Program-made: the position numbers and the translations under genes
Part shown: positions 41,941 through 46,353 of the stretch, one piece after another
How positions within the stretch are numbered: position 1 is the stretch's first letter
Layout of the letters: every line of letters begins with the position of its first letter
The notes under the pieces: generated by a model
Told to the model about the DNA's origin: nothing
Database searches by the model: none
The model's input: only the letters and a program-made list of their open reading frames with translations
Origin: Gaiellaceae bacterium
Lineage (GTDB): Bacteria > Actinomycetota > Thermoleophilia > Gaiellales > Gaiellaceae
DNA length: 64,000 bases
Assembly (NCBI GenBank): GCA_026002995.1
Contig: BPGK01000001.1
Location: forward strand, 1,302,001 to 1,366,000
Direction of reading: 5' to 3'

Positions 41941-42540
41941 TTGCGCGAGATCGCCGACGGGATCTGGCACTGGAGCGCCACCCATCCCCGGCTCGGCATC
42001 GAGGTGCACTCGACCTACCTTCCCGCCGAGCGCGTGGCGATCGATCCGCTCGCCCCGCCCGACGTGCTCGAGTGGCTCGCCGAACACGGTCCTCCGGAGC
42101 ACGTGCTCCTCACGAACCGCCACCACTACCGCTCGAGCAGCGAGCTCGTCGAGCGCTGCGGCGCAACGGTGCGCTGCGTACGGCAAGGGCTCCACGAGTT
42201 CACGCACGGCGAAGCCGTCGAGCCGTTCGACTTCGGGGACGAGCTCCCGGGCGGCATCGTCGCCTACGAGGTCGATGCCATCTGCCCCGACGAGACGGCG
42301 TTCCACATCCCCACGCGCCGGGCGCTCGCGCTCGCCGACGGTGCGGTGCGCCTGGAGCCCGGCGGGCCGCTTGCCTTCGTCCCAGACCACTTGATGCACG
42401 ACCCCGAGCGGACGAAGGAAGGTCTTCGCGCCGCGTACCGGCGCCTCGCCGCGGAGCTCGACTTCGAGCACCTCCTCCTCGCGCACGGCGAGCCATTCGT
42501 CGGCAACGGGCGCGAGGCCCTCGCGGCCTTCGCGGGCTGA
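41941..42540 (+). CDS. Metallo-beta-lactamase-fold-like protein, atypical metal site
   Basis: The 199-residue protein begins at TTG 41941 (LREIADGIWHWSATH). It has the beta-sandwich rhythm of metallo-beta-lactamase-like hydrolases, with VLLTNRHHYRSSSELVERCG in the place where active members have H-x-H-x-D-H, and a C-terminal LLLAHGEPFVGNGREAL similar to the end of glyoxalase-II-like enzymes. The normal metal ligands are largely missing, so catalysis may be lost or changed. It could be co-transcribed with atpDC. The assignment is based on fold-like patterns only. Confidence 0.6.
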   Translation: MREIADGIWHWSATHPRLGIEVHSTYLPAERVAIDPLAPPDVLEWLAEHGPPEHVLLTNRHHYRSSSELVERCGATVRCVRQGLHEFTHGEAVEPFDFGDELPGGIVAYEVDAICPDETAFHIPTRRALALADGAVRLEPGGPLAFVPDHLMHDPERTKEGLRAAYRRLAAELDFEHLLLAHGEPFVGNGREALAAFAG

Positions 42541-42588
42541 GTCTCGCTCGTTCCCCAGAAGAGTCGGTATCCCGGTACGCCCATTCGC

Positions 42589-42594
42589 TAGCCT
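42589..42594 (+). promoter_or_regulatory. -10 box of metH leader RNA
   Basis: TAGCCT would start transcription at about 42601, just at the first base of the pseudoknot element upstream of metH. Confidence 0.4.
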
Positions 42595-42600
42595 GAGCAG

Positions 42601-42697
42601 GCCCCGGAGAGCTTTGAACGGCAGCTTGGCGACCGGGTCAACAAACGCCTAAAGAGCCAGCGGGCCTTCCGGCTCCCGACTCTCTAGGCGGGAGCCG
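42601..42697 (+). ncRNA. Candidate SAM-II/SAM-V-like riboswitch upstream of metH
   Basis: An H-type pseudoknot can be drawn. P1 is CCCGG (42603-42607) with CCGGG (42633-42637). The first loop contains CTTTGAAC (42612-42619). P2 is CTTGGCG (42625-42631) with CGCC-TA-AAG (42646-42654). The linker TCAACAAA joins them. The U-rich first loop and the final C-TA-AAG strand are the conserved parts, from memory, of SAM-II and SAM-V riboswitches, which control methionine genes. A 9-bp hairpin CGGCTCCCG/CGGGAGCCG (42670-42697) directly before the metH start codon could be the expression platform. Position before a methionine synthase gene supports the idea. A covariance-model search is needed to confirm. 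Confidence 0.55.
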
Positions 42698-42702
42698 CTT
42701 TC

Positions 42703-45700
42703 GTGAAGGACACAAGAACGCATCTCCAGGAGCTGATGGCCGAGAGGATCCTCGTCCTCGACGGCTCCTGGGGTGTGCTCATCCATCGCCGCGAGCTCTC
42801 CGAGGAGGCCTACCGTGGCGAGCGCTTCCGCGAGCATCCGCAGGACGTCCGGGGTGACCCCGACCTCCTCAACCTGACGCAGCCGAGCATCGTCGCCGAG
42901 ATCCACGACGCCTACTTCGCGGCGGGGGCGGACATCGCGACCACGAACACCTTCACCGCGACGCGAATTGGGCAGGCGGACTACGGACTCGGCGACGCCG
43001 CCGCGGAGATGAGCCTCGCCGGCGCCCGCCTCGCGCGCGCCGCGGCGGACGAGTGGACGCGCCGGACACCCGAGAAGCCACGCTTCGTTGCGGGCTCGGT
43101 GGGGCCGCTGAACGTCTCGCTCTCGCTCTCGCCGAAGGTCGAGGAACCGGCCTACCGTGCGGTCTCCTTCGAGGAAGTCCGCGACGCGTACGCGGAGCAG
43201 ATCGCGGCGCTCCAGGCCGGCGGGGTCGACCTCCTCCTGATCGAGACGATCTTCGACACCCTGAACGCGAAGGCTGCGATCGTCGCTGCGCGGGACGTCG
43301 CGCCGGAGCTCCCGCTCTGGCTCTCCTTCACCGCGGTCGACCGTAGCGGCCGCAACCTCTCCGGGCAGACGCCCGAGGCCTTCTGGATCTCGATCGAGCA
43401 CGCCGAGCCGCTCCTCGTCGGCGTCAACTGCTCGCTCGGCGCGACGGAGATGCGGCCCTTCCTCGAGGAGTTGGCCGCAGTCGCCTCGACGTACGTCGCC
43501 TGCTACCCGAACGCGGGACTGCCGAACGAGCTCGGCCTCCACGACGAGCAGCCGGGGGATACGAGCCGGTACCTGCGCGCGTTCGCCGAGGACGGGCTCG
43601 TGAACGTCGTCGGCGGCTGCTGCGGGACGACGCCCGAGCACGTTCGCGAGATCGCACGTAGCGTCGAGGGGCTGCCGCCGCGTCGCCCGCCGGAGCGCTC
43701 GCGGTTGCCGCGCTTCTCCGGTCTCGAGCCCTTCGTGATCAGTCCCGACACCGGGTTCGTCGTCGTCGGAGAGCGGACGAACGTCACCGGGTCCGCCCGC
43801 TTCCGCCGCCTTATCGAGGCCGACGACTTCCAGGGGGCCCTCGACGTTGCGCTCGAACAGGTGCGCGGCGGCGCCAATCTCCTCGACGTGAACATGGACG
43901 CAGACCTGCTCGACGCGGAGCGGGCGATGACCACCTTCCTCAACCTCCTCGCCACCGAGCCGGAGGTCGCTCGCCTGCCGATCATGGTGGACAGCTCGCG
44001 CTTCTCCGTGCTCGAGGCGGGTCTCAGGTGTCTCCAGGGGAAGGGCGTCGTCAACTCCCTCTCCCTCAAGGAGGGCGAGGAGACGTTCCTCGAGCAGGCG
44101 AGGATCGTCCGCCGGTACGGGGCGGCCGTGGTCGTGATGGCGTTCGACGAGCGCGGGCAGGCGGAGACGGTCGAGCGGAAGGTCGAGATCCTCGGACGGG
44201 CGTACGACCTCCTCGTCCAGCGAGTCGGCTTCCCTCCGGAGGACGTCATCCTCGACCCGAACGTGCTCGCGGTCGCGACCGGCATCGAGGAGCACCAGGG
44301 CTTCGCGAAGGCGTTCCTCGACGCCATTCCCCTCCTCAAGGAGCGGTGCCCGGGCGCGCTCGTCTCCGGTGGCATCTCGAACCTCTCCTTCGCCTTCCGT
44401 GGCAACGACGTGGTGCGCGAGGCGATGCACGCGGCCTTCCTCTACCACGCGATCCGTGCCGGTCTCGACCTCGGCATCGTCAACGCCGGTCAGCTCGCAG
44501 TGGTCGAGGACATCGAGCCCGAGCTGCTCGAGCGAGTGGAGGACGTGCTCTTCGACCGCCGGCCCGACGCGACCGAGCGGCTCGTCGAGCACGCGCGCTC
44601 GGTCACCGGTGCCGCGAGGCAGCGAGAGCTCGACCTCTCCTGGCGGGAGGCGTCGGTCGAGGAGCGGCTCGCGCACGCGCTCGTGCACGGGATCGTCGAC
44701 TTCATCGAGGAGGACGTCGAGGAGGCGAGGCGCTCGGCTGCGCGCCCGCTCGACGTGATCGAGGGACCGCTCATGGACGGGATGAAGATCGTCGGCGACC
44801 TCTTCGGCGCGGGGAAGATGTTCCTCCCGCAGGTGGTGAAGAGCGCGCGGGTGATGAAGCGCGCCGTCGCCTACCTGGAGCCCTTCCTCCAGGCGGAGTC
44901 GACCGAGCGGAAGGCCGCCGGCCGCGTCGTGCTCGCGACGGTGAAGGGCGACGTGCACGACATCGGGAAGAACATCGTCGGCGTCGTCCTGGCCTGCAAC
45001 GGGTACGAGGTCGTCGACCTCGGGGTCATGGCGCCCGCCGATCGCATCCTCGAGGTGGCAGTCGAGGAGGACTGCGACGTGGTCGGGCTCTCGGGCCTCA
45101 TCACGCCCTCGCTGGACGAGATGGTGCACGTGGCGCGCGAGATGGAGCGCCGGGGGCTCGAGCTGCCGCTCCTGATCGGGGGCGCCACGACGTCGCGCCA
45201 GCACACTGCCGTCCGGATCGCCCCGGAGTACTCGGGGCCGACCGTCCACGTCCTCGACGCCTCCCGTGTCACCGGCGTCGTGAGCGCGCTCCTCGACCGA
45301 GAACGCCGGATCCTCCTCGACCGCGAGAACCGGGCCGAGCAGGAGCGGCTCCGCGCGCTCCACGCCGAGCGGGGGAGCAAGCCTCTGCTCGCGCTCGCCG
45401 AGGCGCGCGCGCGGCGGACGCCGATCGAGTGGCGGGCGGAGGATCTCGCGATCCCGGCCTTCACCGGCGTCCGGCTCGTCGAGCTGGAGGTCGGCGAGCT
45501 CCGACGCTACATCGACTGGCAGTTCTTCTTCCACGCCTGGGAGCTCAAGGGGCGGTACCCGGCAATCCTCGACGACCCCGTCAAAGGGGCCGCGGCGCGC
45601 GAGCTCCTGGAGGCGGCGAACGCGCTGCTCGACGAGATCGCGACCGAGGGCTCGCTCCGGGCCCGTGGCGTCTACGGCTTCTGGCCCGCGCGAGCGGAGG

Positions 45701-46353
45701 GCGACGACATCGTGCTCGACGGGGGCCTCCGCTTCCCGATGCTGCGTCAACAAGCCGATCACGGCGACACGCGCCCGAACCGCTCGCTCGCCGACTACGT
45801 CGCTCCGGCGGAGACCGGTCTCGCCGATCACGTCGGCGCGTTCGCGGTCGCGATCCACGGGGCCGACGAGCTTGCCGAGCGATTCGTCGCCGAGCGCGAC
45901 GACTACCGGGCGATCATGGTCAGGGCGCTCGCCGACCGCCTCGCGGAGGCGTTCGCGGAGAAGCTCCACGAGACCGCTCGGCGCGAGTGGTACGCGCCCG
46001 ACGAGGCGCTGTCGGGGGAGGACCTGATCCGGGAGCGCTTCCGTGGGATCCGCCCGGCGTTCGGCTACCCGGCGTGCCCGGATCACTCCGAGAAGCGGCG
46101 ACTGCTGACGCTCCTTCGTGCCGAGCGGGTCGGCATCGGGCTCACGGAGTCGTGCGCGACGACGCCGCCGGCGAGCGTCAGCGGGATCTACCTCGCGCAT
46201 CCGCAGGCGCGGTACTTCTCGGTCGGGCGGATCGACCGCGACCAGGTCGCCGACTACGCCGAGCGGAAGGGGATCGCGATCGACGAGGCCGAGCGCTGGC
46301 TCGGGCCCAACCTCGCGTACGAGCCATCGCCGGACGGGCGTCGCGCCGTCTGA
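42703..46353 (+). CDS. metH: Cobalamin-dependent methionine synthase
   Basis: The 1216-residue protein transfers the methyl group from 5-methyltetrahydrofolate to homocysteine through methylcobalamin. All four modules are present. The homocysteine domain has zinc cysteines in VGVNCSLG and [10 protein letters not shown]. The pterin domain has [16 protein letters not shown] and [13 protein letters not shown]. The cobalamin domain has [20 protein letters not shown] with the cobalt-ligand histidine. The reactivation domain has [15 protein letters not shown]. The GTG start at 42703 lacks a Shine-Dalgarno and lies just after the leader hairpin, fitting control at translation or by termination. No metE is seen in the window. 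Confidence 0.97.

Follow-up and report, generated by a model that had tools for sequence, protein, structure and literature searches.

Upstream of metH, the cobalamin-dependent methionine synthase gene of a soil-type Gaiellaceae bacterium (Actinomycetota; Thermoleophilia), lies a conserved RNA pseudoknot that is very probably an S-adenosylmethionine (SAM) riboswitch of the SAM-II type, in a divergent actinobacterial (Thermoleophilia) variant predicted to act as a translational OFF switch. The element sits in a 64,000-nucleotide (nt) stretch of contig BPGK01000001.1 (positions 1,302,001 to 1,366,000; here the window), whose coordinates we use below. The variant is missed by Rfam and occurs in a bacterial group without SAM-II on record. 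The assignment of the leader as a structured metH regulator of SAM-II type is well supported; it is no listed member if the Rfam threshold is applied strictly. SAM is the most likely ligand, and this is the strongest of the inferences we draw here. An earlier report of a SAM-II-type switch in this group was not found in the searchable literature, outside of which most subscription journals lie.

Inspection of the sequence places a P1/P2 H-type pseudoknot inside the 102 nt preceding metH (Table 1). A previous sequence-only reading of the region had described P1, a U-rich loop 1, a second helix in pseudoknot order, and a 9-bp hairpin that ends 5 nt ahead of the GTG at 42703, and each of these holds base by base. 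It had overlooked P2a, the −10 box (42589 to 42594), and an anti-P2 strand (42680 to 42690) that competes with the hairpin. An AG linker joins the 5′ strands of P2a and P2b, and a single A lies between P2b and the 3′ strand of P1. The UUUG of loop 1 (42613 to 42616) is predicted to be a major-groove triplex strand, and the UAAA of the P2b 3′ strand (42650 to 42653) presumably contacts SAM. The leader's nested thermodynamic folding is unremarkable (z −0.87), as one would expect of a pseudoknot, for which nested folding is uninformative.

Table 1. Features of the metH leader, its promoter, and its target gene, in window coordinates
Feature	Position	Strand	Observations
−10 element TAGCCT (TANNNT)	42589..42594	+	TANNNT position shared across leaders
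P1 5′ strand CCCGG	42603..42607	+	Compensatory C-G/U-A and C-G/A-U in relatives
Loop 1 AGAGCUUUGAAC	42608..42619	+	Contains UUUG 42613-42616; UUU invariant in 26 leaders
P2a 5′ strand GGC	42620..42622	+	GGC/GCC becomes AGC/GCU in L023, L024, L028
P2b 5′ strand CUUGGCG	42625..42631	+	Invariant in clade; second pair G-C vs C-G in SAM-II controls
P1 3′ strand CCGGG	42633..42637	+	Partner of P1 5′ strand; compensatory changes
Loop 3 UCAACAAA, A-rich, 8 nt	42638..42645	+	Same site bears hairpin insertions in L110/L114 and SAM-II control L134
P2b 3′ strand CGCC-U-AAAG	42646..42654	+	Invariant in 26 leaders; CUAAAG conserved in SAM-II controls
P2a 3′ strand GCC	42656..42658	+	Compensatory changes; single A separates it from P2b; spacer follows
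Hairpin CGGCUCCCG 42670-42678 / CGGGAGCCG 42689-42697, 9 bp	42670..42697	+	Sequence and folds; predicted Shine-Dalgarno-sequestering OFF state
Anti-P2 strand CUCUCUAGGCG	42680..42690	+	Complementary to P2 3′ strand 42646-42656 at 10/11 positions
Shine-Dalgarno GGAG	42691..42694	+	In hairpin 3′ arm, 8 nt before GTG
metH, cobalamin-dependent methionine synthase, GTG start	42703..46353	+	TIGR02082 1562 bits; five Pfam domains

The proposed link of the leader to metH is supported both by the identity of the gene, which is complete by NCBIfam TIGR02082 and Pfam, and by the recurrence of the leader before metH in relatives (loci are labeled L### and genomes G###, with G000 the source genome). Among 80 loci gathered in a tblastn-based MetH search, the element stands directly upstream of metH at 27 Thermoleophilia-type loci, and altogether the pseudoknot leader precedes metH in ~40 related Thermoleophilia (Gaiellaceae-like) genomes. 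Forty aptamer positions are identical in 26/26 aligned leaders. We built a covariance model, R1, from leaders of the clade alone, including no SAM-II sequence and excluding L001 and L002, since MAFFT alignments containing them misplace P1. R1 finds one copy in the source genome. Applied to 249 genomes of the class, it locates the element in 30 members of the source genome's family, G000 among them. Nearly all of these family matches lie upstream of metH; the sequence of L095 is too short at its end to tell, and in L106 the leader (847 to 908) precedes a metE-like gene (951 to 1862; Meth_synt_1, PF08267), that is, a cobalamin-independent synthase gene. The three R1 matches beyond the family are weak; the two G044 copies are the only ones that seem genuine. 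A scan of 396 genomes of the phylum gave no convincing additional copies. We rejected the weak class-wide matches L112 and L113, which lack the CUAAAG pseudoknot strand, and the weak phylum-wide matches L125, which falls within a penicillin-binding-protein-like coding frame, and L126, which is only partial.

The element is patchy because metH lacks the motif in some relatives (L144, L147, and L140) and many show no metH: among 21 checked genomes without a model match, 10 had no MetH match at 1e-50, including G044 and one genome from another family of the order. Recurrence in ~40 relatives, the 40 identical positions, and compensation in P1 and P2a above slid controls place the element beyond chance. 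G044, which belongs to another Thermoleophilia family, carries two near-identical SAM-II-like aptamers 3.8 kb apart (L111, 1037 to 1090 and 4875 to 4928). Both copies have a GC-rich hairpin and a GGAG-ATG start behind them, and the reading frames that follow appear short or broken; the pair may reflect a duplication in which a gene has decayed.

The covariation analysis of metH leaders that the sequence-only reading had proposed bears out P1 and P2a, both of which compensate. P1 occurs as CCCGG/CCGGG, CCUGG/CCAGG, and ACCGG/CCGGU (C-G to U-A and C-G to A-U), and P2a shows a compensatory G-C to A-U change; double-change cells number 7, against 1.4 when shuffled and 0 to 2 when slid. P2b is invariant within the clade, and its strands are complementary in every leader. 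Its second pair is G-C here but C-G in 8/8 SAM-II controls and in G044, whose P2b pairs are G-C, C-G, A-U, and G-C, so that P2b compensates between families. In L110 and L114 (L114, 1371 to 1510), loop 3 holds two inserted hairpins, while both P2 strands are intact; such insertions, also seen in SAM-II control L134, recall SAM-II long loops and the P3 helix of SAM-V.

Among relevant Rfam families, only SAM-II (RF00521, SAM_alpha; gathering cut-off, 36 bits) responds to the leader, aligning over its full length to 42594 to 42673 at 15.2 bits. The suggested Rfam check thus gave an alignment below the cut-off for SAM-II and nothing for SAM-V. In genomes of 2.6 to 4.2 Mb each, the top-scoring RF00521 site is the metH leader in G045 (25.7 bits), G057, G091, G027, and G189. 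Alphaproteobacterial SAM-II positive controls score 36 to 83 bits with RF00521, and, in the reverse direction, R1 retrieves true alphaproteobacterial SAM-II aptamers (L133, E 8e-5; L132, E 0.002) and also both SAM-II-like aptamers of G044 (E 4e-6). The weak RF00521 matches L116, L120 to L122, and L124, which lack the GCUUG/CUAAAG core, were rejected, as were chance matches to mir-3155, PVT1_3, and similar eukaryotic Rfam families. In L137, an alphaproteobacterial locus, a SAM-II-like aptamer (1507 to 1562) that closely precedes a metK-like gene scores only 24.2 bits with RF00521, which indicates that the cut-off probably misses members.

The leader resembles SAM-II in its P1, the UUUG of loop 1, a GCUUG...CUAAAG P2 with P2a, an A-rich loop 3, a promoter immediately ahead of P1, and a location before methionine-pathway genes; the linear order UUUG-GCUUG-P1-A-rich loop-CUAAAG-P2a is common to the clade leaders and SAM-II. 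It differs in score (15.2 to 25.7 bits, against the cut-off of 36), in a 4-bp P2b whose second pair is G-C rather than C-G, in a loop 1 spacer that is 2 nt longer in most members (in L001, L002, and L114 the spacing is still 3 nt, nearer SAM-II), in its host (Actinomycetota, as opposed to Proteobacteria or Bacteroidetes), in its target, metH, and in its anti-P2/hairpin translational platform. The SAM contacts described for SAM-V (U8/U47, U9.A48:U20, U10.A49:U19, and A50/A18; PMC6061858) correspond, by our own mapping from that structure paper, to U42613 to U42615, U42650, A42651 to A42653, and U42626 to U42627, all of which are invariant; the place of A18 is taken by C42625, as in the SAM-II controls. 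With SAM-V (RF01826) the leader shares the H-type pseudoknot superfamily, the UAAA and UU contacts, and, as predicted for the leader, translational control, but it has no P3, a C at the A18 place, and a longer P2a (at least 3 bp). Of the SAM-II/SAM-V-like fold originally proposed, the SAM-II part therefore stands, while the SAM-V part finds no support, given the lack of an RF01826 match and the C before UU; the comparison of motifs supports a SAM-II-like rather than a SAM-V-like leader. SAM-II long loops (RF01726), described from Bacteroidetes and from marine sequences (PMC2864571), resemble the leaders of L110 and L114 in their loop 3 hairpin insertions, but the RF01726 model finds nothing up to E 10 and the loop 3 of the window is short. 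SAM-I (RF00162) and SAM-IV (RF00634) presumably share the ligand but are unrelated in fold, and neither is present in the metH leader; the absence of a SAM-IV core, noted earlier for the leader, extends to the whole genome (RF00634, nothing up to E 1). Nor did the leader match the Rfam families of SAM-V, S-adenosylhomocysteine (SAH), or cobalamin riboswitches.

In SAM-II the promoter is placed just before P1 (Corbino et al., PMC1273637). In 35/39 distinct leaders of our set, a TANNNT begins 12 to 14 nt before P1, so transcription should start at P1, at a predicted ~42600 to 42602; a simple scan found no sigma-70 consensus pair. In the mechanism we propose, transcription would start at P1, and plentiful SAM would lodge in a triple helix of P2 and loop 1 and stabilize the pseudoknot. 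The pseudoknot would then hold the P2 3′ strand CGCCUAAAG, allowing the 9-bp hairpin to form, hiding GGAG, and stopping MetH synthesis. With little SAM present, the P2 3′ strand would instead pair with the anti-P2 strand, the hairpin would be blocked, and the Shine-Dalgarno would be free for translation of metH.

Folding calculations give two competing structures. The anti-P2 duplex has a z of −2.5 (p 0.01) in the window and a z below −1.5 in 17/31 leaders (55%), and in a chosen set of ten leaders 87% of its cells are paired, against 31 to 61% when slid. The two folds of the window are nearly equal in energy, at −24.7 kcal/mol for the sequestering hairpin and −24.3 kcal/mol for the anti-P2 fold with GGAG open, and GGAG is ~9% unpaired in the free leader and fully paired (0) once the P2 strand is withheld. 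Six leaders (L098, L002, L009, L103, L015, and L110) favor the anti-P2 fold when free and switch when the P2 strand is withheld. In L023, L024, and L102, an AUG begins 0 to 2 nt after P2a and the Shine-Dalgarno is AAAGAG, so the pseudoknot P2 itself would cover the Shine-Dalgarno; under both platform arrangements, SAM is thus predicted to turn translation off. A different expression platform, a CUAAAGCGCCCGAGAGC...GCUCCCGGG hairpin that overlaps P2a and is followed by AGGAGA, is seen in L006, L008, L014, L025, L029, and L071.

Several observations weigh against a SAM-II-type switch working in this manner. RF00521 stays under its gathering cut-off in all 249 class genomes, with a best score of 25.7 bits. 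P2b does not vary in the clade, where support for that helix is limited to complementarity. The window hairpin is slightly favored even without aptamer folding, and strongly so in L001 and L106, so equilibrium folding alone gives little ON state and cotranscriptional folding must be assumed. L006, L014, and L105 are without an anti-P2 strand, and some leaders use other platforms. Control at the level of transcription, by termination, is an unlikely alternative: no intrinsic-terminator-like site was found in 42450 to 42800, the hairpin contains the Shine-Dalgarno and lacks a U-run, and the aptamer abuts the start codon in L023, L024, and L102.

Ligand changes on a kept scaffold are known from other riboswitch families, and a SAM-II scaffold that instead senses SAH, methionine, or a compound of the cobalamin/folate cycle would suit the use of cobalamin and folate by MetH, the low Rfam score, and a loop 1 that in most members is 2 nt longer than in SAM-II. 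We consider it improbable, given that the positions equivalent to SAM contacts are all invariant, that the leaders with 3-nt spacing (L001, L002, and L114) are nearer SAM-II, and that the copy in L106 precedes a cobalamin-independent synthase gene. Convergence, in which a conserved protein-binding leader or an unrelated regulatory RNA looks like SAM-II, could draw on the shortness of the motif and the sub-threshold Rfam score, but the reciprocal model matches and the shared linear order of elements make it more improbable still. The least credible of the alternatives is that the leader is itself a SAM-V riboswitch. Translational control with no terminator is as in SAM-V (PMC6061858), but RF01826 matches neither the window nor ten relatives, even at E 10, C replaces A before UU in P2, P2a is a 3-bp GC helix, and P3 is missing from the window.

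Returning to the SAM-II-type switch, we lean toward a clade-specific actinobacterial SAM subclass that either descends from SAM-II or gave rise to it, acts as a bistable translational switch by means of an anti-P2 strand, and shares the genome with a SAM-I riboswitch controlling a gene of a different branch, that of threonine synthase (thrC). If this is true, one cell reads one metabolite through two structurally unrelated RNAs, the metH leader and the SAM-I element at thrC, and an actinobacterial family regulates metH through a conserved SAM-II-type switch, which widens the phylogenetic range of the pseudoknot SAM class. The leader sequences should reduce Rfam's blind spot, and they offer a compact bistable expression platform. 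The SAM-I element (S-box) precedes the window by ~22 kb and lies upstream of thrC, on the minus strand (L151, 1501 to 1588; G000:C1, 1279586 to 1279673), and scores 67.4 bits against a cut-off of 44.4. Besides the source genome, SAM-I elements above the cut-off occur in 9/16 relatives that bear the SAM-II-like leader.
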